The notes under the pieces are model-generated. The model searched no databases. It was given only the letters and a program-made list of their open reading frames with translations, and was not told where the DNA came from. A program made the translations under genes and the position numbers. From NCBI GenBank assembly GCA_000023405.1, contig CP001643.1:2232001-2296000 (forward strand): 64,000 nucleotides of DNA. Reading direction: 5' to 3'. This stretch comes from Brachybacterium faecium DSM 4810. GTDB taxonomy: Bacteria; Actinomycetota; Actinomycetes; Actinomycetales; Dermabacteraceae. Below are positions 5,526 through 29,912 of this stretch, piece after piece; the first letter of the stretch is position 1; the number at the start of each line of letters is the position of its first letter.

Positions 5526-6422
5526 GTGCGGATCGCGGTCACCGGTGCCACAGGTGTGCTCGGCCAGGAAGCCGTGGAGGCGCTCGTCGCCGCCGGGCAC
5601 GAGGTCACCGGCATCACGCGGCGCGACTCCGGAGTGCCGATCGTCGAGGGGCGCGGCGGCAGCGCGATCGTCGCCGACGTGTTCGACCCCCGTGACCTCA
5701 CCCGCGCCTTCCGCGGCCACGAGATCGTGATCAACACCCTCGCGCACGTGCCCGTCGGCATGTCGGGCCTGCGCCCGCTCGCCTGGCGCGAGGACGACAA
5801 GCTCCACCTCGAGGCCTCCGTCGCGATCGCGAAGGCGGCGGCCGAGGCCGGTGCGCGGAAGCTGATCCAGGAATCCACGATCTTCCTCTACCCGGACAAC
5901 GGCTCCGACTGGATCAGCGAGGATCTCGCGCTGAACGTGCGCAACCAGGCCTTCCGCCCGCGGGTGCGGGAGATGCGCGCGGCGGTGGACTTCGCCACCT
6001 CCGGGCGCAGCGCCGTGATCCTGCGCCTGGGCCAGCTGTTCGGCCGCGACCAGCACACCACCCATGCGCTCAAGGCGACCCGGGACGGCGATCCGATCCT
6101 GCTGGGCAAGCCGGACCACTACGTCACGCTCCTGCACCACTCCGATGCCGGGCGCGCCTTCGTCGCGGCCCTGCGCGCCAGCAGCGGCTTCTACAACGTC
6201 GGCGGAGAGCCGATCACGAAGAAGCGCTGGGCGAAGGATCTCGCCACCGAGGCCGGTGCGCAGTCGCCGGCGAAGTTCTACCCGGAGATCACGCAGGCGA
6301 TCGTCGGCACCCGGCTCGACGTGCAGCGGCGTTCGCTGCGGGTCTCCTCGGTGCGGTTCATGTCCGAGACCGGATGGCGGCCCACGGTGGGCCCCTCCAC
6401 CCCGGGCTGGTCGCGCCGCTGA
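5526..6422 (+). CDS. NAD-dependent epimerase/dehydratase family protein
   Basis: The 298-residue extended-SDR protein begins with the Rossmann motif TGATGVLGQ (residues 6-14). It carries an early NTLAHVPVG segment and QESTIFLYPDNG where the catalytic Ser/Tyr region is expected. It starts with GTG at 5526 behind GGAGGAGGTC. A TAGACT -10 box at 5462-5467 gives a leader of roughly 50 nt. The substrate, probably a nucleotide sugar or related carbonyl compound, is not predictable. A divergent tRNA lies upstream. Confidence 0.85.
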   Translation: MRIAVTGATGVLGQEAVEALVAAGHEVTGITRRDSGVPIVEGRGGSAIVADVFDPRDLTRAFRGHEIVINTLAHVPVGMSGLRPLAWREDDKLHLEASVAIAKAAAEAGARKLIQESTIFLYPDNGSDWISEDLALNVRNQAFRPRVREMRAAVDFATSGRSAVILRLGQLFGRDQHTTHALKATRDGDPILLGKPDHYVTLLHHSDAGRAFVAALRASSGFYNVGGEPITKKRWAKDLATEAGAQSPAKFYPEITQAIVGTRLDVQRRSLRVSSVRFMSETGWRPTVGPSTPGWSRR

Positions 6423-6461: not shown

Positions 6462-7046
6462 TCAGAGCTCGCGGAGCACGCGCGCCGGGTTGCCGACCGC
6501 GAGGCTGCGGGCGGGCACGTCCCTGGTGACCACGCTGCCCGCGCCGATCACGGCCCCGTCTCCGATGCTCACACCGGGCAGCACGGTCACTCCCCCGCCG
6601 ATCCATACGTCGTCGCCGATGGTGATCGGTTCGGCCGCCTCCCAGCCCTCCCGCCGAGGCTCCAGCTCGAGCGGATGGATCGGGGTGAGCAGCTGGATGT
6701 TCGGGCCCAGCTGGCAGTGGCGCCCGATGCGGATCTCGACCACGTCCAGTGCGGTGAGGGCGTAGTTGACGAAGGTGCCCTCCCCGATGTGCAGCTGGGT
6801 GCCGTAGTCGAGCCGCAGCGGTGCCCGCACGTGCGCCCCCTCCCCCAGGGAGCCCAGCAGCTCGCGGAGGATCTGCTGGGCGGCCTCGGGATCCGTGGGG
6901 TACTCGCGGTCGAAGCGCGCCGTCTCGGCGAGGGCGTGGCGGTAGCGCCTCTGGATCTCAGCATCGTCGGCCCGCTACCAGTCCCCCGCGAGCATGGTCT
7001 CGAGCGGGGTGCGCGGGTCGTTCTCGTCGAGGGTGAAGCGCTTCAT
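6462..7046 (-). pseudogene. Sugar (maltose-type) O-acetyltransferase interrupted by an amber codon
   Basis: Reading from ATG 7046 gives MKRFTLDENDPRTPLETMLAGDW, then TAG at 6977-6975, then RADDAEIQRRYRHALAE in the same frame through to 6462 (194 residues in all). The first part is the MAC-type N-terminus, the rest a left-handed beta-helix with hexapeptide repeats (TIGDDVWIGGG, SIGDGAVIGAGSVV). The full length fits maltose/galactoside O-acetyltransferases. The family usually has Tyr right after GD/E-W/L, so a single TAC-to-TAG change explains the stop. The only downstream restart, GTG 6830, would lose the acceptor-site region. A recent pseudogene or a sequencing error is most likely. Confidence 0.8.
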
Positions 7047-7087
7047 CCCGCGAGCCTACGCGGCATCTCGCCCTCCACGGCGACGCC

Positions 7088-7543
7088 TCAGCGGGGCAGG
7101 CGCATCCCCACGCTGGGCGCGGAGTCGACGAAGCCGAGGGAACGGTAGAGCCGCTGTCCGGGAGGGTCCGCGAGCAGCGTGATGTACGGGTGCGGCGGTG
7201 CGGCGGCGTCGATCCGGGCGAGGAGGTCCTCCATCACGGCGCGGCCCAGACCCTGGCGCTGCTGTGCGGGCTCGGTCGCCACATCGGCCAGATGGAAGTA
7301 CCAGGTGCCGTCCCCGATCACGCGGCCCATCGCGGCCAGATCGCCCTCGGCGGTGCGGACCGCGGCCCAGGCCCAGCTGTTCGCCAGCGCCCCGGCCGCC
7401 TGCGCGGCAGTGCGGGGGCTGAGCCCGGCCACCTGGCGCAGGCGCACGTACTCCCGGCGCGTCGGCGCGGAGCGGGTGAGGCGGAATCCGGCGGGCAGCG
7501 GCGCTGCGGGCGAGGTGGACGGGGAGGACGGGAGGTCGGGCAT
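7088..7543 (-). CDS. GNAT-family N-acetyltransferase
   Basis: Starting at the ATG at 7543, the 151-residue protein has one GNAT fold with VATEPAQQRQGLGRAVMEDLL as the acetyl-CoA loop (beta4-alpha3) and a C-terminal GQRLYRSLGFVD. The open frame extends upstream, but that part overlaps the leader of the divergent YchJ gene and is Arg/Ala-rich noise. AGGA lies 9-12 nt before the ATG. The substrate is unknown. Confidence 0.85.
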   Translation of the reverse strand: MPDLPSSPSTSPAAPLPAGFRLTRSAPTRREYVRLRQVAGLSPRTAAQAAGALANSWAWAAVRTAEGDLAAMGRVIGDGTWYFHLADVATEPAQQRQGLGRAVMEDLLARIDAAAPPHPYITLLADPPGQRLYRSLGFVDSAPSVGMRLPR

Positions 7544-19165: not shown

Positions 19166-19651
19166 ATGGACGCTGTCGTCGATTTCCTCCGCCGCCTGCC
19201 CGACGAGATCGCACGGGTGGGCGGCTCCCTGCCGTGGCGCGCCGGGCTGCTGGTGCTCGCGCTGCTGCTGAACATCGGCTTCTACGTGCCCTCCCTGCCG
19301 GCGGGCACGCCCGGTGCCGAGGTGCCGGGGATCGACAAGGCGGTGCATCTGCTGGTGTTCGGCCTGACGGTGTTCGCCGCCGGGAGGCTGCTCGCCCCGC
19401 GGCGGCGGTTCCCGATCGGCTGGGTGGCGATCCTCGCCATCGCGCACACGCTGCTCATCGAACTGGTGCAGGGCGTGGCGCTGCCGGACCGCAGCGCCGA
19501 CGCCGCCGACGTCCTCTTCGGCGTGATCGGCGTCGCGCTCGGGCTGGCGGCGTGGGCCGCGGAGCGGATGCTGCGCCGCACGGCCGCGCTGCACCACGGC
19601 GATCTCGAGGACGAGCCGCTCCCCGAGCAGCTCGAGCACGGCTCGCACTGA
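19166..19651 (+). CDS. VanZ-like family membrane protein
   Basis: The 161-residue protein has three to four hydrophobic helices and the VanZ-like pairing of GIDKAVHLLVFGLTVF with the later HTLLIELVQGVALPDRSADAAD. The family is linked with resistance to lipid-binding glycopeptides only in name; most members are uncharacterised. GACAAT ends 7 nt before ATG 19166, suggesting a leaderless mRNA. Its stop overlaps the next start (TGATG). Confidence 0.85.
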   Translation: MDAVVDFLRRLPDEIARVGGSLPWRAGLLVLALLLNIGFYVPSLPAGTPGAEVPGIDKAVHLLVFGLTVFAAGRLLAPRRRFPIGWVAILAIAHTLLIELVQGVALPDRSADAADVLFGVIGVALGLAAWAAERMLRRTAALHHGDLEDEPLPEQLEHGSH

Positions 19652-20766
19652 TGGCACAGGACGCCGACGAGGACCATGACCGGCTCGGCGCGCTGGTCGG
19701 CGCGCTGACCCGCACCGCCGCCTCCGCTCCCCCGGACGGCGACCCCCTCGAGGGCGCGACCGCGGCGGCCGCCGCCGTGGACCGGCCCGGGCACGGCGAC
19801 CCGCGGGCGTGCTCCGGGGTGACGGCCCTGTTCGCGGCCGACGGCACCCGCCTCCCGGCCGGCTCGCGCGAGATCACGCCGGTGCGCGAGGACACCCTGT
19901 TCGACCTGGCCTCCGTGACGAAGGTGGTCACGGCGCTGACCGCGGCGACCCTCATCGACGACGGCGTGCTGGACCCGCACTCCCCGGTGGCCGAGCACAT
20001 GCGCGCGCCCGATCCCCGGATCACCGCCCACCATCTGCTGACCCACACCGCGGGGCTGCCGCCGGTGATGCCGCTGTGGCGCCTGCCCGGGGATCGCCGG
20101 GCCCGTCTCGAGGCGGTCTCGAGCGCGCCGCTCGTGACCGCCCCGGGCACCGCGCACGCCTACTCGTGCATCGGATTCATCCTGCTCGGCGCGCTGCTCG
20201 AGGAGCTCACCGGCACGGCCCTGCCGGAGCTCGCCCGCCGTCGGGTGCTCGCCCCGGCCGGAGCCACGAGCGCCGGCTGGGAGCCCTGCCCGGAGCGGGC
20301 GGCACGGGCAGCAGCCACCGAGCACCAGGCGGATCCTCCGCGCGGCCTCGTGCGCGGCACGACGCATGACGAGACCGCCTGGTCGCTGGGCGGGGCCGGC
20401 AACGCCGGCGTCTTCGCGACCCTCGAGGACGCCCTCGCCCTGGGCCGGGTGCTCGCGGGCAGAGGCCCGGGGCCGCACCTGTCCCCCGCGACGCGCCGCC
20501 TGCTGACCCGTGACCAGCTGCCCGCCGGGGTGCGGACGGGTGCCCCGTGGCAGCAGGGCTGCGGGCTGCGGATCGGACAGGAGCTCGAGACCGGGGCCGT
20601 GCTGCCCCGGGTTGTGGGGCACCCCGGGTTCACGGGCACCTCGGTGCTCGCCGACCCCGGCACCGGCACCGTCGCGGTGCTGCTGACCAACCGGGTCCAT
20701 CCCCACCGCACGCGCTTCACCGTCGAGCGCTCCCGGCGGGAGCTGGCGCGCCTCGCCTTCGGCTGA
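19651..20766 (+). CDS. Beta-lactamase-family serine hydrolase
   Basis: The 371-residue protein has the class C/esterase fold signatures: SVTK with the nucleophile serine (LASVTKVVTALTAA) and GHPGFTG in place of KTG. The Y-x-N motif reads YSCIGFILLG, with Cys where Asn is usual. No signal peptide is seen, so it appears cytoplasmic. Such proteins include esterases, D-aminopeptidases and AmiE-like muramyl amidases; resistance to beta-lactams is not implied. It is coupled to the VanZ-like gene and convergent with the NamZ/ABC operon, whose substrate may be related. Confidence 0.82.
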   Translation: MAQDADEDHDRLGALVGALTRTAASAPPDGDPLEGATAAAAAVDRPGHGDPRACSGVTALFAADGTRLPAGSREITPVREDTLFDLASVTKVVTALTAATLIDDGVLDPHSPVAEHMRAPDPRITAHHLLTHTAGLPPVMPLWRLPGDRRARLEAVSSAPLVTAPGTAHAYSCIGFILLGALLEELTGTALPELARRRVLAPAGATSAGWEPCPERAARAAATEHQADPPRGLVRGTTHDETAWSLGGAGNAGVFATLEDALALGRVLAGRGPGPHLSPATRRLLTRDQLPAGVRTGAPWQQGCGLRIGQELETGAVLPRVVGHPGFTGTSVLADPGTGTVAVLLTNRVHPHRTRFTVERSRRELARLAFG

Positions 20767-20845
20767 GCACCCGTCGCGGCGCCGGCCTGCTCGCCGCCCG
20801 GCGCGGCGGGCGCCCGGCGCGCGCTCAGCGCTGCGGGCTCCGCGC

Positions 20846-21703
20846 TCAGCGCAGCCGGGCGGCGGGGTTCGGGGCGGCGGCGAGCAGGCGACGGGTGTAC
20901 TCGTGCTGCGGGTCGTCGATCACCGCGCGGCTCGTGCCCCGCTCCACCACGCGCCCGTGGTGCATCACCATCACCTCGTCCGAGTAGCGCCGCGCGCTGC
21001 CCAGATCGTGGGTGATGTAGAGGACGGCGAGGTCCTCGTCCCGGCGCAGCGAGTCGATGAGGTCGAGCATCTCCTGACGGATGGTGACGTCGAGCATCGA
21101 GACCGGCTCGTCCGCGATGAGCACCCTCGGCGAGGCGGCGAGGGCGCGCGCGAAGGAGACGCGCTGGCGCTCCCCGCCGGAGAGCTCGTGGGGGAAGCGA
21201 TCGAGGTAGCGCTCCGCCGGTGTGAGCCCCACGCGCTCCAGCAGGTGCAGGCAGCGCTCGTGCACGGCGCTCGCGGCCCGCACCTCCTGGTGGAGGCGCA
21301 CCGCGCGGCCCAGGGTGTACGCGATCCGGCGCAGCGGGTTCAGCGAGGCGAAGGGGTCCTGCAGCGTGAGCTGCACGTCTCCCACGTACTGCCGGTGGCC
21401 GGTGCCGCCGGAGGTGGGCACCTCCCGGCCGTCCAGCAGGATCTGCCCCGAGGTGGTGGGGATGAGCCGGGCGAGCATCCGGCCCAGCGTCGACTTGCCC
21501 GAGCCGCTCTGGCCCACCAGCGCCGTGATGCGGCCCTGGACGAGGGCGAGCGAGACGTCGTCGACCGCGCGCATCGTCTGCTGGCGGCGCAGCAGCCCGG
21601 TGCGGGCGCCGACGGGGTACTCCTTGACGAGGTGGCGGCCCTCGAGGATGACGCGGGGCTCGGTGCTCGCCGCCCCTGAGGGTGTGGTGTCGGTGGTGGT
21701 CAT
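20846..21703 (-). CDS. Peptide ABC transporter ATP-binding protein (DppF/OppF type)
   Basis: The 285-residue ATPase has Walker A VGQSGSGKST, signature LSGGERQRVSFARAL, Walker B VLIADEPVSMLD and the oligopeptide-type C-terminus HEYTRRLLAAAP. It is last in the operon that starts with the namZ-like gene at 28343. It overlaps the upstream fusion gene by ATGA, so it should pair with that ATPase domain to power one importer. Confidence 0.92.
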   Translation of the reverse strand: MTTTDTTPSGAASTEPRVILEGRHLVKEYPVGARTGLLRRQQTMRAVDDVSLALVQGRITALVGQSGSGKSTLGRMLARLIPTTSGQILLDGREVPTSGGTGHRQYVGDVQLTLQDPFASLNPLRRIAYTLGRAVRLHQEVRAASAVHERCLHLLERVGLTPAERYLDRFPHELSGGERQRVSFARALAASPRVLIADEPVSMLDVTIRQEMLDLIDSLRRDEDLAVLYITHDLGSARRYSDEVMVMHHGRVVERGTSRAVIDDPQHEYTRRLLAAAPNPAARLR

Positions 21704-23565
21704 GCGAGGCTCCCCAGGTTCTCGAGCGAAGACAGCAGCGTCCTGGTGTACGGGTGCTGCGGGGACCGGTAGACGTCCATGGCGGGCCCGTACTCGACGA
21801 GCCGCCCGTGCCGCATCACGGCGATGGAGTCGGAGATCTCCAGCAGCAGGGCCAGATCGTGCGTGGTGAAGACGATCGCGAAGCCGTACTCCTCGCGCAG
21901 GCGCACCACCTGGTCGAGGACGTCACGCTGCACCAGCAGGTCCAGCGCGGTGGTCGGCTCGTCCATGAAGATCACGTCGGGCTCGAGCACGAGGGCGATC
22001 GCGATCGCGACCCGCTGCTTCATGCCGCCGGAGAGCTCGTGCGGGTAGGCGTCGATCCGCGAGGGGTCGATCCCCACCCGGCGCAGGTGCTCCTTCGCGA
22101 TCTCGGTGCGCCGCGCCGGGGGCAGCCCGGGTCGGTGCACCCGGATCACGTCGTCGAACTGGGCGTGGATCGAGGTGACGGGGTTCAGCGCGTTCATGGC
22201 GCTCTGGAACACCACGGCGATCTCGTTCCATCGCAGGGCCCTCAGCTCCCGGTCCTCGAGGTGCAGCAGGTCCGTGGCCGTGCCGTCCTCCGCCCGGTAG
22301 GTGATCGACCCGTCGGTGATCTCGGCCGGGGGTCGCAGCAGCCGGGTGATCGCGTTGGTGAGGGTGGACTTGCCCGACCCGGATTCGCCCGCCAGTCCGA
22401 GGATCTCGCCGCGGCGCAGCGTCAGCGAGACGTCCTCGACGGCGTGGACCGTCCCGAACCCGGTCGGGTAGTCCACGTGCAGCGCGTCGACCTCGATGAT
22501 GGGCGAGCCCGGCATCGGGGAGGGGCGGAGGCGCGGGGCGAGCTCCGGATCCTCCCGCTGCTCCGTCCCGGCGGGAGCGCGGTCGTCGGTGAGGGCGACG
22601 TGCTCCGCCGTCGCGCCGGTCGCGCCGCCCGGGCGGCGCGGTCCCGTCGAGCCGATCCCCGAGGCCTGGGCGTCCGTGCTGGTGGCGTCGCCGCCCGCGG
22701 CGCGGGCGGCCGCCCCCTTCCGCACCGCCGCTCCGGTGCGCAGGCGCGGGTTGGAGTACTCGTCGATCGCGAAGTTGATCAGGGCGAGGCCCGCGCCGAT
22801 CACCGCGATCGCGAGGCCCGGCGGCACGTACCACCACCAGGCGCCGGCCAGCAGCGCCTGGGAGTTCTGCGCGAAGTAGAGCATCGACCCCCAGCTGGTG
22901 GTGGTCAGCGAGCCGAGCCCCAGGAAGGCCAGACCGGCCTCGGCGAGGATGCCGCCGATCACCGAGAACAGGAAGCCGGAGGCGACCAGCGGGAGCATGT
23001 TGGGCAGGACCTCGAAGAACATGATCCGGATCCGGCTCTCGCCGGTGGCGCGGGCCGCCTCGACGAACTCGCGGTTGCGCAGGGAGAGGGTCTGGGCGCG
23101 GATCACGCGGGCGGAGCCGGCCCAGGAGGTGATCGCGATGACGATCGCGATCGACAGCAGCCCGCGCGAGGGCAGGTACCCGGTGAGCACGATGAGGATC
23201 GGCATGCCGGGGATCACCAGGAACACCGCGGTGAGGATGTACAGCAGATCGTCGGCGACGCCGCGGAGGTACCCGCCGAGCAGGCCGACGGCCACGGAGA
23301 CCACCTGGGAGACGACCCCGGCCAGCAGCCCCACCAGGAGGGAGGTGCGGGCACCGGTCATGAACTGCGCGAACACGTCCTGGCCGGTCTGGGTGGTGCC
23401 CAGCCAGTGCCGCGCCGAGGGCGGCTCGAGCATCTCGAAGGAGGTCTGGCTCGGGTCGAAGCGGGCGATCATCGGCCCGAACACGGCCAGCGCCGCGAAC
23501 ACCAGCACGATGAGCAGGCCGGCACGGACCTTCCCGCCGCGCGGGACGAGGGTGGAGATGGTCAT
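21700..23565 (-). CDS. Fused peptide ABC permease (DppC) and ATPase (DppD)
   Basis: One 621-residue polypeptide joins two subunits that are usually separate. Residues about 1-285 are a DppC-like permease with several membrane helices and the EAA loop EAARATGESRIRIMFFEVLP. Residues 290-345 are a Gly/Ala/Arg-rich linker, and residues 350-621 are a DppD-like ATPase with GESGSGKST, LSGGMKQRVAIA, VIFMDEPTTALD and HPYTRTLLSSL. The frame is open throughout and both halves look intact. The neighbours are DppB upstream and DppF downstream, so the complex would be DppB plus the fusion plus DppF plus the lipoprotein. Confidence 0.92.
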   Translation of the reverse strand: MTISTLVPRGGKVRAGLLIVLVFAALAVFGPMIARFDPSQTSFEMLEPPSARHWLGTTQTGQDVFAQFMTGARTSLLVGLLAGVVSQVVSVAVGLLGGYLRGVADDLLYILTAVFLVIPGMPILIVLTGYLPSRGLLSIAIVIAITSWAGSARVIRAQTLSLRNREFVEAARATGESRIRIMFFEVLPNMLPLVASGFLFSVIGGILAEAGLAFLGLGSLTTTSWGSMLYFAQNSQALLAGAWWWYVPPGLAIAVIGAGLALINFAIDEYSNPRLRTGAAVRKGAAARAAGGDATSTDAQASGIGSTGPRRPGGATGATAEHVALTDDRAPAGTEQREDPELAPRLRPSPMPGSPIIEVDALHVDYPTGFGTVHAVEDVSLTLRRGEILGLAGESGSGKSTLTNAITRLLRPPAEITDGSITYRAEDGTATDLLHLEDRELRALRWNEIAVVFQSAMNALNPVTSIHAQFDDVIRVHRPGLPPARRTEIAKEHLRRVGIDPSRIDAYPHELSGGMKQRVAIAIALVLEPDVIFMDEPTTALDLLVQRDVLDQVVRLREEYGFAIVFTTHDLALLLEISDSIAVMRHGRLVEYGPAMDVYRSPQHPYTRTLLSSLENLGSLA

Positions 23566-23568
23566 GGC

Positions 23569-24546
23569 TCAGGCCCCCTGTCGGGTACGAGGATCGAGGA
23601 CGACGTACGCGGCGTCCGCGATGAGGTTCGCGACGATCACCGCGAGGGAGATGATCAGGAACAGCCCCTGCATGAGGGGGAAGTCCTGCGCGGAGACGGC
23701 CTGGAACAGGGTGTAGCCCAGTCCCGGATAGTTGAAGATGACCTCGGTGAGCATCGATCCGCCGACGACAGCGCCGAGCGCGAGCGCGAATCCGGTGATG
23801 CTGGGCAGGATCGCGTTGCGCGCGGCGTAGCCGAACAGCACCATCCGCGGCGGCAGCCCCTTCGCCTCGGCCATCGAGACGTAGTCCTCGCCGAGGATCG
23901 TCACGGTCATGTTCCGCATCTGCAGCACCCATCCCGCGAAGGAGCCGATGACGATCGTCAGGGCGGGCAGGGCGGCGTGGAGCACCACCGAGCCGATGAA
24001 CGGGGCGGACAGCTCGGGGAACATGGTGCGGTCGTACGCCCCCGCGTAGGGGAACCAGCCGAAGGTCACCGCGAGCACGAGCACGAGGATCAGCGCCATC
24101 CAGAAGTACGGGATGGCGTTGAGGAAGGTCAGCGCCGGCAGCACATGATCGGACCAGGTGCCGCGGCGCCAGGCCAGCAGCACGCCCAGCCCGGTGCCCA
24201 GCAGGAAGCTGATCACGGTGGAGACGCCCACCAGCACGACGGTCCAGGGCATCGCCCCGGAGATGATGTCGATGACCGGGACGGGGTAGTTGCTCAGCGA
24301 GGTGCCCAGGTCGAGGTTCACCAGGTCCGCCAGGTAGCGCCCGTACTGGATGATCAGCGGGTCATCGGTCATCCCGAACTGTGCGGCGATCGCCTCGGCC
24401 GCCTCGGGCTCGATCTGGCCCTCGGAGCCGGCGATGAGCACGCGCACGGGATCGCCCGGCATCAGGCGCGGGATCAGGAAGTTCAGCGTCAGGGCGGCCC
24501 AGGCGATGAACGCGTACAGGCCCAGCTTCTTCAGCAGGTATCTCAT
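23569..24546 (-). CDS. Peptide ABC transporter permease (DppB type)
   Basis: The 325-residue permease begins MRYLLKKLGLYAFIAWAAL and has six predicted helices. It shows the binding-protein-dependent transport EAA region (MAEAKGLPPRMVLFGYAARN) and the DppB N-terminal block PGDPVRVLI. It lies 3 bp before the fusion gene and 16 bp after the lipoprotein gene in one transcript. Confidence 0.93.
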   Translation of the reverse strand: MRYLLKKLGLYAFIAWAALTLNFLIPRLMPGDPVRVLIAGSEGQIEPEAAEAIAAQFGMTDDPLIIQYGRYLADLVNLDLGTSLSNYPVPVIDIISGAMPWTVVLVGVSTVISFLLGTGLGVLLAWRRGTWSDHVLPALTFLNAIPYFWMALILVLVLAVTFGWFPYAGAYDRTMFPELSAPFIGSVVLHAALPALTIVIGSFAGWVLQMRNMTVTILGEDYVSMAEAKGLPPRMVLFGYAARNAILPSITGFALALGAVVGGSMLTEVIFNYPGLGYTLFQAVSAQDFPLMQGLFLIISLAVIVANLIADAAYVVLDPRTRQGA

Positions 24547-24562
24547 CGGTGGCTCCTCCGCC

Positions 24563-26218
24563 TCAGCTCGTGGTCCTGGTCAGGGCGCGCAGCACCATGA
24601 CCCGGTCGGCGTTCTGCACGGGCGCGCCCAGGGCGTACGGCTCCGACTCGTCCGGGAAGCCCGTCCAGTGCGCGGTGTTGTAGTTGAACCAGTTCGGCGC
24701 CGTGACGATCGGCAGGGCGGGCATCTGCTCGACCATGATCCGCTGCAGCCCGTCGATCGCGGCGCGCTGCTCGGCCTCGTCGTCGGTCTCGGCGAAGGAG
24801 CGCAGCAGCTCGTCGGTCTCCTCGTCGTACCAGCGCTGGAAGTTCGCCACCACCGGCTCGTCGCCCTCGGTGCGGTACTCGGAGGAGAGCATCGCGCGGT
24901 ACAGGTCCCAGGGGCTCTGCCCGGCCCCCGCGGTGGAGATGGTGATGTCGAAGTTCCCGGTGTCGCGCGCCTCGAGCCACTGCTCGAAGGAGATGCCCCG
25001 CGGGGTGAGGGTGATGCCCACCGTCGACAGCTGCGAGCCCAGGATCTGGCTGGTGGTCACCCAGTCGTTGTAGCTCGAGGGGATCGGCAGCTCGAAGACC
25101 AGCGGCGTGCCGTCGGGCGCGACCCGCACGCCGTCCGCGCCGCGCTCGTAGCCGGCCGCATCCAGCACCTCCTCGGCCTGCTCGACATCCTGCTCGTACT
25201 CGAGGTCCCGGTAGTCCTCGGCGATGAACTCCTCGAACGTGGGCCGGGGCAGCCCGGTGGGATGGGGCGGGCCGAAGTACTTCTGGTAGGCGATCTCGGC
25301 GATCTCCCGGCGATCGACCGCGAGGCTGATCCCACGCCGCAGCTCGAGGTCCTGGAAGAGCTCCTTCTCGAGGTTCAGCGTGAGGTTCACGGTGCCGTTG
25401 CCGGGATACCAGTAGCCGCGGTGCTCGGGATCGTGGTCCACGAAGATGCGGTCGATATTGGCGACGAACCCGCCGGACCAGTCGAGCTCGCCGGCCTGCA
25501 GCGCCGTGTTCATCGTCTGGGTGGTGAAGGAGGGCCAGGCGAGCTCGCGCGGCTCGAACTCCTCGGCGGCCCAGTGCTCGTCGTTGCGCACGAAGGTGTA
25601 CAGCTGGTCGGAGAAGCGCTCGAGCACGTACGGGCCGCTGCCCACCGGTTCGGCGATCTGCTCGGTGGAGGGGTCCTCGAAGGCGGAGAACAGGTGCTCG
25701 GGCACGATCGGGCGGGTGACGATGTCCGCTTCCTGGGCGAAGGAGGCCCGGCCGAACTCGAGCCGCACCCGGTGCGCGTCGAGCGCCTCGGCGTCGACGA
25801 CCTCGAGCGCCACCGTGTTGGTGGCCGGCACGTCGCGGTGCATCAGGAAGGTGAAGACCACGTCCTCGGCGTCCAGCGGCTCGCCGTCGGTGAACACGGC
25901 GTCCTCGCGCAGCGTCACCGTCATCACGGTGCCGTCCTCGTTCCATTCCGCGTCCGTCGCGAGCCACGGCTCGGAGACGCCCGGGGTCATGGCGGTGGCG
26001 AGGCGGAGGTTCTCATAGATCAGGCCGCTCGCGCCCTGCAGGGGGACGCCGCCGTAGGGGTTGAAGTTGGGCTGGAAGGTGGTGGCGTCGTTGGCGTGGA
26101 TCCGCAGCGGCAGGTCCTCGCCTGCCGCCGGCCCCGAGGAGCAGCCGGCGAGCGCCGCTGCCCCGGCGGCTCCTACAATGCCGAGCATCATCGCGCGGCG
26201 GGTGACCTCTGGTGTCAT
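24563..26218 (-). CDS. Family 5 peptide/muropeptide-binding lipoprotein of ABC transporter
   Basis: The 551-residue SBP_bac_5 protein has a lipobox LAGC with Cys26 as the predicted lipidated residue. A twin arginine (TRRAMML) lies before the hydrophobic stretch, so Tat export is possible. The family signature region is GVSEPWLATDAEWNEDGTVM, with the C-terminal block RAALDG-like AIDGLQRIMVEQMPALPI. It captures the ligand outside the membrane for the permeases downstream. Because the operon begins with a NamZ-like muramidase, muropeptides are a plausible ligand, along with plain peptides. It overlaps the acetyltransferase gene by ATGA. Confidence 0.92.
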   Translation of the reverse strand: MTPEVTRRAMMLGIVGAAGAAALAGCSSGPAAGEDLPLRIHANDATTFQPNFNPYGGVPLQGASGLIYENLRLATAMTPGVSEPWLATDAEWNEDGTVMTVTLREDAVFTDGEPLDAEDVVFTFLMHRDVPATNTVALEVVDAEALDAHRVRLEFGRASFAQEADIVTRPIVPEHLFSAFEDPSTEQIAEPVGSGPYVLERFSDQLYTFVRNDEHWAAEEFEPRELAWPSFTTQTMNTALQAGELDWSGGFVANIDRIFVDHDPEHRGYWYPGNGTVNLTLNLEKELFQDLELRRGISLAVDRREIAEIAYQKYFGPPHPTGLPRPTFEEFIAEDYRDLEYEQDVEQAEEVLDAAGYERGADGVRVAPDGTPLVFELPIPSSYNDWVTTSQILGSQLSTVGITLTPRGISFEQWLEARDTGNFDITISTAGAGQSPWDLYRAMLSSEYRTEGDEPVVANFQRWYDEETDELLRSFAETDDEAEQRAAIDGLQRIMVEQMPALPIVTAPNWFNYNTAHWTGFPDESEPYALGAPVQNADRVMVLRALTRTTS

Positions 26219-27204
26219 CGGAGGGTTCCTTCCTGGTGGACGGTCGGGCCGGCCTCGGCGCCGGGCGGGGCGGCGTCGTCGGTGAGCGGGAGGGTGACGG
26301 GGGTGAAGGTGCGCAGCGTGGTGAAGCCGCGTGAGCTGTAGAGGCGGTGGGCCGGGGTGTCCGGGGCGGTCCACTGGAACCAGGCATGGGCGAGGCCCTC
26401 GCCGGCCATGTGCTGCAGGGCCCGGTCGAGCAGCGCGGCGCCGGCGCCGGTGCCGCGGGCGTGGGGGACGACCCCGAAGGGGCCGAAGCGGCTGGGGTCG
26501 GGGCCGACGAGGCCCCATCCGGCGAACCCGAGCAGGGCGCCGTCGCGGTCGCGGGCGAGCAGGATCCGCTCGAGGTCCGCGGAGGGCTGCGAGCGCTCCC
26601 TGGGCTCGGAGCGCCCGGCGTGCCGGCGCAGCAGCGCGGCCCATCCGGGGTCGAGGTGCTCCTCCACCACGGCGAGCAGCTCGGGACCGTCCTGTTCGCG
26701 GCAGGTCGCCACGTGGAGCCCGGGCCGGTCGCGGCCGACGGGGAGGTCGTGGAGCGGGCGGGTCATCGCCAGCGCCGTCCCGACGGGGCGGGCGCCGCGG
26801 CGGGCGAGGAAGCCGGCGGTGCCGGGGTCGCGCTCGGGATCGACTCCCGGCGCCGCGTAGCCGGCGGGTCTGCCGCTGATCCGCAGGCTGCGGGCCCCGG
26901 CGGCACGGGCGCAGCGGGCCGCCTCGCGCAGCAGGGCGGTGCCGATGCCGCGGCGACGGTGCGCGGGATCGACGGCCCCGCTGACCAGCCACGCCGCGCC
27001 CTCCTCGGTGCTCAGATGGACGTAGCCGCGCAGCTGTTGGCCCTCCATCGCGGTGAGCACCGTGGTCGCGGCGGCCGGCGCGGCCTCGAGCAGCGCGCGC
27101 ATCCGGCGCGGCCCGATCACGGCCGTGGGAGAGCCGGTGGTGAGGGCGCTGAGGACCCCCGCCTCCTCGCTGCCGTGGACCTGCCGCAGGTGCAGGCCCC
27201 TCAC
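26215..27204 (-). CDS. Tandem-GNAT acetyltransferase in the NamZ/ABC operon
   Basis: The 329-residue protein contains two GNAT folds. The first has AVDPAHRRRGIGTALLREAA (residues about 66-85), the second VPHARGTGAGAALLDRALQH (residues about 245-264). The C-terminus of the second domain is RLYSSRGFTTLRTF. GTG 27204 overlaps the namZ stop codon as GTGA and is chosen for that coupling. An imported amino sugar or peptide amine would be a natural substrate, but this is inference from position only. Confidence 0.85.
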   Translation of the reverse strand: MRGLHLRQVHGSEEAGVLSALTTGSPTAVIGPRRMRALLEAAPAAATTVLTAMEGQQLRGYVHLSTEEGAAWLVSGAVDPAHRRRGIGTALLREAARCARAAGARSLRISGRPAGYAAPGVDPERDPGTAGFLARRGARPVGTALAMTRPLHDLPVGRDRPGLHVATCREQDGPELLAVVEEHLDPGWAALLRRHAGRSEPRERSQPSADLERILLARDRDGALLGFAGWGLVGPDPSRFGPFGVVPHARGTGAGAALLDRALQHMAGEGLAHAWFQWTAPDTPAHRLYSSRGFTTLRTFTPVTLPLTDDAAPPGAEAGPTVHQEGTLR

Positions 27205-28343
27205 GCCGCCCTCACCGTCGGCGCCGGGGAGGCGGAGAGGATCTCCTCGTACGAGGCGCCGTCCTCGATGCCCTCGCGGAAGGCGGAGGAGCCCCAGAGC
27301 AGGTCGATGAACGGCGGGCGTCCCTCCGCCTGCTCGCGCCACAGCGGGCGCTCGGGGTGCACCGCGGCGACGGTGCTGATGATCGCGTGGCCCACCCGCA
27401 GCGGGTCGAGGACCTCCGGGCCGGCACCGGCCCGTGCCGGGTCGAGGGTGAGATGGACCTGGGCGCCGTGCACGTGCTCGCCCGCATGGTCGCCGTGGGT
27501 GGGCCGGTAGGCGGCCTCGCGGAAGCGCACCCCGGGCAGGTCGAGGGCGCGCAGCTGCGCCGCGAGCTCCGGTCCGCACCAGGGGGCGCCGAACAGCTCG
27601 AAGGGACGGGTGGTGCCGCGGCCCTCGCTGAGCGCGGTGCCCTCGAGCAGGCCGGTGCCGGGGTAGAGCGCGACGGTGGTCAGGGTGGGCATGTTCGGCG
27701 AGGGCGCCACCCAGCAGGCGGAGCCGTCGGCTCCCGGGGCCTCGACCACGTCGAGCTCGAGCTCGTGCTCCAGGTGGCCGGCGGCGACGGCCCGGGCGAG
27801 GCTGCCGAGCCTCTCACCGTGGCGCAGCGGGACGCCGAGGCGGCCCACGAAGCTCGCGCACGCGGGGTCCAGCCCCGGCCCGACCGCCGTCGCGGCGAGG
27901 GGTGCGGGCCGGTCGAGCACCGTCACGGGCAGGCCGAGCCGGGCGCAGGAGGCCATCACGTCGACCATGCTCCACAGGTAGGTGTAGAAGCGGCAGCCCA
28001 CGTCCTGCAGGTCCACGACCACCCGGTCGAGGCCCGCACCGGCCAGCAGCCGGTCGAGCTCGGCGCCGTGGAGCCCGTAGGCGTCGAGGACGGGCAGCCC
28101 CGTGGCCCGATCGGTGTCGATGTCGTTGCCGTCCCCCGCCTGGCCCGTGCCCCAGTAGCCGTGCTCCGGGGAGATCAGGCAGCGCACGTCGACCTCTGCG
28201 GCGAGGAGGGCGTCGACCCCGCGGGCGAGGTCCGCGGAGACCGCGGCGGAATGGGTCAGCAGACCGAGGGCGCCGCCGGGCAGGAGATCCGGTGCGGCGA
28301 GGACCCGATCCAGTCCGGAACGAGCATGTGATGCAGACGACAT
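27201..28343 (-). CDS. namZ: DUF1343 / NamZ-like exo-beta-N-acetylmuramidase
   Basis: The 380-residue protein matches the DUF1343 family, whose Bacillus member NamZ (YbbC) releases terminal MurNAc from peptidoglycan fragments. It has the conserved SPEHGYWGTGQAGD (with the Glu-His pair thought to be catalytic), VVVDLQDVGCRFYTYLWSM, SPNMPTL and a C-terminal substrate lid. No clear signal peptide is seen, so it may act inside the cell on imported fragments. It heads a six-gene operon with a binding lipoprotein and peptide-type ABC importer. TAGCGT ends 6 nt before the ATG and an inverted repeat lies over the -35. Confidence 0.85.
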   Translation of the reverse strand: MSSASHARSGLDRVLAAPDLLPGGALGLLTHSAAVSADLARGVDALLAAEVDVRCLISPEHGYWGTGQAGDGNDIDTDRATGLPVLDAYGLHGAELDRLLAGAGLDRVVVDLQDVGCRFYTYLWSMVDVMASCARLGLPVTVLDRPAPLAATAVGPGLDPACASFVGRLGVPLRHGERLGSLARAVAAGHLEHELELDVVEAPGADGSACWVAPSPNMPTLTTVALYPGTGLLEGTALSEGRGTTRPFELFGAPWCGPELAAQLRALDLPGVRFREAAYRPTHGDHAGEHVHGAQVHLTLDPARAGAGPEVLDPLRVGHAIISTVAAVHPERPLWREQAEGRPPFIDLLWGSSAFREGIEDGASYEEILSASPAPTVRAA

Positions 28344-28349
28344 GGCGAC

Positions 28350-28355
28350 ACGCTA
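28350..28355 (-). promoter_or_regulatory. -10 box of the namZ operon (leaderless)
   Basis: TAGCGT ends 6 nt before the namZ ATG. A -35-like TTTCGT lies 17 bp upstream, inside the operator. Confidence 0.5.
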
Positions 28356-28369
28356 CACATCTCGCCCCG

Positions 28370-28392
28370 ATTACGAAACCTTCCTTCGTAAT
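28370..28392. promoter_or_regulatory. Inverted-repeat operator upstream of the namZ operon
   Basis: ATTACGAA and TTCGTAAT form a perfect 8-bp inverted repeat around a 7-nt spacer, centred about 38 bp upstream of the namZ start. It covers the predicted -35, which fits repression. The AT-rich arms stand out in this GC-rich sequence. The regulator is not in the window; a MurR/RpiR- or GntR-type protein is the obvious class to test. Confidence 0.65.
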
Positions 28393-28454
28393 GTCCGATT
28401 CCGTGTCGCGCCGACGCCGCCGCCGTGCCGCCCGCGCGGCCTCCGCGCTCCTGT

Positions 28455-29912
28455 TCAGCCCTCGAGGGTGATCTCGTCGGCGTAGATCGCCGACATCGCG
28501 CCGGTGATGGTGTCCACCGTGCCCGCCTCCTCGCGGGCCACCTGCTCCACCGCGCTCGCCACCGCCTTGGTCACGCCCTCGTGGAACACGCTCGGCACGA
28601 TGTAGGTGGGGTTCAGCTCGTCGGCGGTGACCACATCGGCCAGCGCCTTCGCGGCCGCGAGCAGCATCCGATCGCTGACCCGGGTGGCGTGGGCGTCCAG
28701 CAGGCCGCGGAACACCCCGGGGAAGGCGAGCACGTTGTTGATCTGGTTGGCGAAGTCGCTGCGCCCGGTGGCGACCACCTCGGCGTGCTTGACGGCCTCG
28801 GCGGGATCGATCTCCGGGGTGGGGTTCGCCATCGCGAACACCACCGAGCGCTCGGCCATGGTGGCGACGTCCTCGGCGGTGAGGATGTTGCCGGCGCTGA
28901 CGCCGATGAACACGTCGGCCCCGGCGACCGCGTCGGCGAGGCTGCCGGTGAGCTCGCGCGGGTTGGTGACCTCCGCGATCCAGGGCAGGCGGCCGGCGAG
29001 CTGCGCGCGCTGCTCGTGGATGATCCCGTCGATGTCGGTGACGACCACGTCGCGGGCCCCGGCGGCGCGCAGCAGGCGCAGGATCGCGGTGCCGGCGGCG
29101 CCCGCCCCGGAGAGCACGATGCGGGCGGTGGCGATGTCCTTGTCGACCACGCGCAGGGCGTTGCGCAGCGCGGCGACGACGACGATCGCGGTGCCGTGCT
29201 GGTCGTCGTGGAAGACGGGGATGTCGAGCTCGGCGCGCAGGCGGTCCTCGATCTCGAAGCAGCGGGGCGCGGAGATGTCCTCGAGGTTGATCCCGGCGAA
29301 GACGGGGGCGATCGCCTTGACGTGCGCGACGATGTCCTCGACCGAGTGGGCGTCCAGGCAGATCGGGAACGCGTCGATGTTCGCGAAGCGCTTGAACAGG
29401 GCGGCCTTGCCCTCCATGACGGGCATCGCGGCGAGCGGGCCCAGATCGCCCAGGCCGAGGATGGCCGAGCCGTCGGAGACCACCGCGACGGTGTTGCGCT
29501 TGATCGTCAGCCGGCGGGCGTCCTCGGGGTTCTCCGCGATGGCCTTGACCACGCGGGCCACCCCCGGGGTGTAGATCATCGAGAGGTCGTCGCGGTGGCG
29601 GATCGGCAGCTTCGACTCCACGGTGAGCTTGCCGCCGAGGTGGGCGAGGAAGGTGCGGTCGGAGACCTTGCCCAGCTCGACCCCGTCGACCGTGCGCAGC
29701 TCGTCCACGACCTCGATCGCGTGGTCGTGGCCGGCGGTGAGCACGGTGATGTCCGCCCGCATGCGCTCGGGGCCGGAGGCGGAGACGTCGAGCGCGGTGA
29801 CCGTGGCGCCGCGATTCTCGATGCGTGCGGTGATGTCGCTGACCGCTGCGGAGCGGGCGGCGAACTCGAGTCGGATCGTGATGGAGTAGCTCACGGTAGG
29901 CATCGGTGACAT
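28455..29912 (-). CDS. Malic enzyme with N-terminal ACT domain
   Basis: The 485-residue protein oxidatively decarboxylates malate to pyruvate. Residues 1-80 form an ACT-like regulatory domain (ITIRLEFAARSAAVSDITAR). Then come SMIYTPGVARVVKAIAE, LGLGDLGPLAAMPVMEGKA, FHDDQHGTAIVVVAALRNAL and the nucleotide-binding GAGAAGTAILRLL. The start is ATG 29912, with TAGGCT ending 7 nt upstream. NAD or NADP preference is not clear from sequence. Confidence 0.95.
   Translation of the reverse strand: MSPMPTVSYSITIRLEFAARSAAVSDITARIENRGATVTALDVSASGPERMRADITVLTAGHDHAIEVVDELRTVDGVELGKVSDRTFLAHLGGKLTVESKLPIRHRDDLSMIYTPGVARVVKAIAENPEDARRLTIKRNTVAVVSDGSAILGLGDLGPLAAMPVMEGKAALFKRFANIDAFPICLDAHSVEDIVAHVKAIAPVFAGINLEDISAPRCFEIEDRLRAELDIPVFHDDQHGTAIVVVAALRNALRVVDKDIATARIVLSGAGAAGTAILRLLRAAGARDVVVTDIDGIIHEQRAQLAGRLPWIAEVTNPRELTGSLADAVAGADVFIGVSAGNILTAEDVATMAERSVVFAMANPTPEIDPAEAVKHAEVVATGRSDFANQINNVLAFPGVFRGLLDAHATRVSDRMLLAAAKALADVVTADELNPTYIVPSVFHEGVTKAVASAVEQVAREEAGTVDTITGAMSAIYADEITLEG

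Follow-up and report, generated by a model that had tools for sequence, protein, structure and literature searches.

A probable recent nonsense mutation in a sugar O-acetyltransferase gene of Brachybacterium faecium DSM 4810

A single in-frame amber codon within an otherwise whole gene can be read in several ways. Has the gene just been broken, is a protein still made from it, or is the codon an error in the sequence? This question is raised by a sugar O-acetyltransferase gene of DSM 4810, the type strain of the poultry-litter actinobacterium Brachybacterium faecium. The gene is located in a 64,000-base stretch of the genome that is called the window here. Its features and those of its neighbours are collected in Table 1.

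Table 1. Features of the interrupted acetyltransferase gene and of the genes that flank it, in window coordinates
Feature	Position	Strand	Remarks
Sugar O-acetyltransferase gene, interrupted	6462..7046	minus	194 codons + TGA
In-frame TAG, codon 24	6975..6977	minus	Tyr in 29/29 genus loci read
ATG start of acetyltransferase	7044..7046	minus	Same place in 19/20 orthologues
TAGGCT, -10-like box	7053..7058	minus	6 bases before ATG; predicted leaderless-type promoter
Mac (maltose acetyltransferase capping) domain, PF12464	6843..6995	minus	Residues 18-68; TAG inside domain
Internal GTG, codon 73	6828..6830	minus	First in-frame ATG/GTG/TTG after TAG
Hexapeptide repeats, PF00132, intact	6522..6626	minus	Residues 141-175
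NAD-dependent epimerase/dehydratase family gene, intact	5526..6422	plus	Synteny anchor; flanks acetyltransferase
GNAT acetyltransferase gene, intact	7088..7543	minus	Synteny anchor; flanks acetyltransferase

The gene and its amber codon

A sequence-only reading of this DNA had proposed a sugar O-acetyltransferase of 194 residues whose frame is open on either side of a TAG. The frame and coordinates prove to be exact. Translation of the minus strand over 6462-7046 gives MKRFTLDENDPRTPLETMLAGDW, a stop, RADD...VLREL and the terminal stop, and the TAG is the sole internal stop. The assignment to this enzyme type also stands. The protein comprises a Mac domain followed by hexapeptide repeats, as in O-acetyltransferases of the maltose/galactoside type, and both domains exceed their Pfam cut-offs in the interrupted gene (36.0 bits for PF12464 and 51.6 bits for PF00132). 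No other Mac-domain match occurs in the B. faecium DSM 4810 genome.

The maltose and galactoside O-acetyltransferase family shares with this protein the Mac domain and the hexapeptide left-handed beta-helix, and it supplies the best matches among both NCBIfam models (maltose O-acetyltransferase, E 8.7e-42) and PDB chains (3srt, a maltose O-acetyltransferase, E 3.8e-47). The DSM 4810 gene differs from the family in being interrupted at codon 24 and in scoring below the equivalog cut-offs, with 143 bits against 314 for maltose O-acetyltransferase and 124.1 bits against 347 for galactoside O-acetyltransferase. Because of these scores, no substrate is assigned.

The first 23 codons are part of the acetyltransferase gene, because the Mac-domain score is higher when they are included (36.0 bits with X at the stop, versus 26.8 bits for the part after the stop alone), because 20 syntenic orthologues align without gaps across the residues that flank the stop, and because the ATG is at the same place in 19 of these orthologues.

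The search for homologues covered 58 genomes, that of DSM 4810 included, and the best 30 matches were read, namely the gene itself and 29 loci of relatives, all in the same genus. Twenty of these 29 loci adjoin at least one of the epimerase, GNAT and YchJ genes and were taken as orthologues, while the nine others are without these neighbours and represent a second type, 57-60% identical. Not one of the 29 loci contains a stop, and codon 24 is a sense codon for Tyr at every one of them (TAC in 28, TAT in 1), so the in-frame stop of DSM 4810 stands where its orthologues carry a sense codon. That a single TAC-to-TAG change suffices, as had been suggested, agrees with this codon usage. Tyr had also been called usual for the family, and it is found at position 24 in 48 of the 55 loci from named organisms that are readable at that register, one of them Brachybacterium. 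Four of the seven exceptions have Tyr one residue earlier, which represents a register slip. The named-organism set contained 80 loci, of which 25 were omitted because their match starts past query residue 4.

Mac domains number 38 in the genus, spread over 31 of 38 genomes when DSM 4810 is included, and its own is the only one with a stop inside. A Mac match is absent from 7 of the 38 genomes, among them two incomplete assemblies, G001 (74%) and G005 (88%). As a control, the window was compared with 80 kb of a relative (G033), in which 82 genes were called with starts picked by codon score. Of these genes, 36 have a window counterpart with at least 60% identity, in a comparison that covers 31,371 of the 64,000 window bases, and the acetyltransferase gene is the only one of the 36 that is interrupted in the window copy. 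A further stop reported in this comparison lies five residues before the end of the match, at a natural C-terminus. Among genus relatives, the stop at codon 24 of the acetyltransferase gene is more than chance.

Start site and promoter

The sequence-only reading would fail if homologues naturally began after the TAG, and none of the 20 orthologues does so. A natural N-terminus after the stop is ruled out, given that both the ATGs of the orthologues and the promoter box lie upstream of it. The remaining orthologue that does not share the start position, L013, has its ATG one codon further upstream. An in-frame Met within 60 codons upstream, with no intervening stop, is present at 55 of 55 readable loci from named organisms, although this is a weak test.

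The -10-like box is shared widely by the orthologues. In 18 of the 21 genes, own included, a TANNNT sequence precedes the start with 5-8 bases between them, whereas 2000 shuffled sets gave a mean of 0.2 and a maximum of 3; the 21 promoters, being related, are not independent of one another, and the shuffles preserve single-base content only. The spacing of the box fits a leaderless transcript, and the predicted promoter would thus be of a type that is common in another actinobacterium, M. tuberculosis, for which a share of 26% of the genes with a primary start site is given (PMC3898074).

Constraint and rival readings of the stop

The rest of the enzyme had been judged undamaged and the event consequently recent, and estimates of selective constraint bear this out. 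The stop codon was masked in every rate calculation. In a tree that joins the DSM 4810 gene with its 20 orthologues (21 genes in all), the branch to the DSM 4810 gene has an omega of 0.089, versus 0.079 for the rest, and an omega of 1 on that branch is rejected (2dlnL 13.67). Two comparison branches, L004 and L005, have omegas of 0.086 and 0.028. When the final part of the DSM 4810 branch is made unconstrained, with all parameters fixed except one branch length, a share of 5% costs 2dlnL 2.56 and a share of 10% costs 4.89. The unconstrained share of the branch must lie below about 10%. Only 1 of 66 otherwise-invariant residues is changed in the DSM 4810 gene; the corresponding number ranges from 0 to 7 among the other 20 genes, a count in which two of the private changes of L013 are artefacts, as this locus was aligned without its first Met. 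The -10-like box of the predicted promoter has likewise been retained in DSM 4810.

Relaxed constraint, which is a usual but not a defining sign of a pseudogene, is therefore not observed. Unrelaxed constraint fits a break that is too recent to have left a trace, or a sequencing error. A fully constrained frame would look the same if the stop were such an error or if the protein were still made, and these readings have to be weighed on other grounds.

Perhaps the gene of the species is intact, and the finished sequence is wrong at the TAG or records a mutation that became fixed in the sequenced culture only. The full constraint and the lack of any other damage in the gene speak for this reading, as does the standing of the gene as the sole Mac-domain match of its genome. 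However, the assembly was built from Sanger and 454 data with Illumina polishing, and the error rate stated for it is less than 1 in 100,000 (PMC3035206). An error rate at this upper limit would predict 0.76 nonsense errors across the entire coding sequence and 0.00013 within the acetyltransferase gene, so although an error somewhere in the genome is possible, one in this gene is a priori unlikely. The difference is moreover a substitution and not a homopolymer indel. In view of these figures, we consider a sequencing error unlikely, and the reading as a whole, culture mutation included, has a low but appreciable probability. Alternately, TAG might be reassigned in DSM 4810 or programmed for readthrough, and at first sight the codon seems free for such a use, since the 59 called genes of the window all end in TGA. 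Yet TAG ends 16 of 232 genes (6.9%) sampled from the rest of the genome in fifteen 20-kb stretches (300 kb), with TGA ending 214 and TAA 2, and a similar share is seen in the relative G020 (9 of 120 genes). Release factor 1 is present (429.1 bits, cut-off 423.25), and none of the 49 tRNAs found in the genome, at each of which ARAGORN read the anticodon, has the amber anticodon CTA. The signs of an organism that reassigns or suppresses amber (a CUA tRNA, a missing release factor 1 or an unused TAG) are thus lacking, the genetic code looks normal, and the earlier suggestion that the stop is suppressed is not supported, whether a dedicated suppressor tRNA or an altered code is considered. Reassignment is largely refuted, and we give it almost no weight. 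The run of TGA ends in the window is a mild excess, probably due to chance or regional composition, and does not extend as a rule to the whole genome.

A partial or full product might still be made by leaky readthrough of the amber codon, or by a restart at GTG73 that yields a 122-amino-acid hexapeptide core. The unrelaxed constraint is consistent with such a product, and GTG73 is preceded by a strong Shine-Dalgarno-like stretch, GGGGAGGGG (duplex -14.6 kcal/mol). However, comparable stretches precede codon 73 in intact orthologues (-15.5 in L004, -14.5 in L009 and -14.6 in L014), because the codons for Gly-Glu-Gly yield them. The restarted core would be without the Mac domain, and no Mac match is found in it. 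Readthrough faces the same obstacles as reassignment, in that no suppressor tRNA is among those found, release factor 1 is present and TAG is in use as a stop. A product still made by either route is accordingly improbable. More doubtful still is a combination in which a real amber codon ends a leaderless 23-codon start and the restart at GTG73 supplies a partly functional 122-residue core, although a core with some function would, if it exists, account for the unrelaxed constraint.

The reading that we favour, with good confidence, is that a very recent nonsense mutation changed the conserved Tyr codon 24 to amber and left a pseudogene of a dispensable Mac-domain/hexapeptide sugar O-acetyltransferase gene. 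The gene carries an in-frame stop at a sense codon of its orthologues, the genetic code shows no change that would suppress it, and no amber tRNA is among those found. According to this proposal, a recent substitution would have converted the Tyr codon of a maltose/galactoside-type enzyme to TAG, and transcription would continue from the putative leaderless-type promoter. Ribosomes would begin translation at the ATG and halt once 23 residues had been joined, whereupon release factor 1 would free the peptide. No working enzyme would then be made, and the gene would be at the very start of its decay, its loss presumably tolerated. The case resembles the single-nonsense pseudogenes of bacterial genomes, with one in-frame stop and the rest intact, and no difference in kind is seen. 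For the whole DSM 4810 genome, 60 pseudogenes are reported (PMC3035206). The amber codon would thus mark gene loss at an early and unremarkable stage, of little import beyond annotation, and DSM 4810 probably obtains no product from its sole Mac-domain sugar acetyltransferase gene.

Presence of the gene across the genus

The flanking epimerase gene is matched in 37 of 38 genus genomes, although the match in G004 is weak. Neighbours were surveyed at the best 30 epimerase loci of the 37 matched genomes, within at most 1,500 bases on each side; six full-length matches and one weak match lie outside the survey. The acetyltransferase gene adjoins at 11 of the 30 loci, own included, and at 4 others an orthologue is located elsewhere in the genome. 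Another 14 loci are without the acetyltransferase gene, and YchJ is in place at all 14 and GNAT at 7. A remnant is found at one locus (G026), where 81 bases of the acetyltransferase C-terminus (L193, 1241-1321) persist between GNAT and epimerase, probably as an older stage of the same loss.

DSM 4810 thus has the same place and the same neighbours as the Brachybacterium species from which the orthologue is gone at 14 of 30 loci. It differs from them in that the gene is missing there, or reduced to a remnant in G026, whereas its own copy is whole but for one codon. On a tree of the epimerase (28 rows), presence of the acetyltransferase gene changes at least 8 times, with gains not told from losses, and the number of losses is rough because 11 of 27 inner branches are open. 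A genome was scored as having the gene if the first type occurred in it at any location, the broken copy was scored as present, and G058 and G059 were not counted. The pattern suggests that the genus has lost, or did not keep, the gene several times, and for this reason its loss would appear to be tolerated. The amber codon is consistent with the opening step of a loss like those met elsewhere in the genus, and the locus would represent a clean snapshot of a step that is seemingly recurrent.

The second type of Mac-domain acetyltransferase is found in nine genus genomes (L024-L032). Among 35 genus relatives, typed by identity alone, both types occur together in G030 only. The near confinement of the second type to genomes without the first looks like replacement.

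Elsewhere in the window, the minus strand at 21700-23565 encodes a 621-amino-acid protein in which the permease (BPD_transp_1, OppC_N) and ATPase (ABC_tran) of an oligopeptide-type transporter are fused. For the interval 19,589-28,457, the compared 80 kb of G033 contain no match at 60% identity. Nearby are genes for a further permease, an ATPase, a substrate-binding protein and a NamZ-like exo-N-acetylmuramidase. As a guess, this stretch might be an island for muropeptide salvage.
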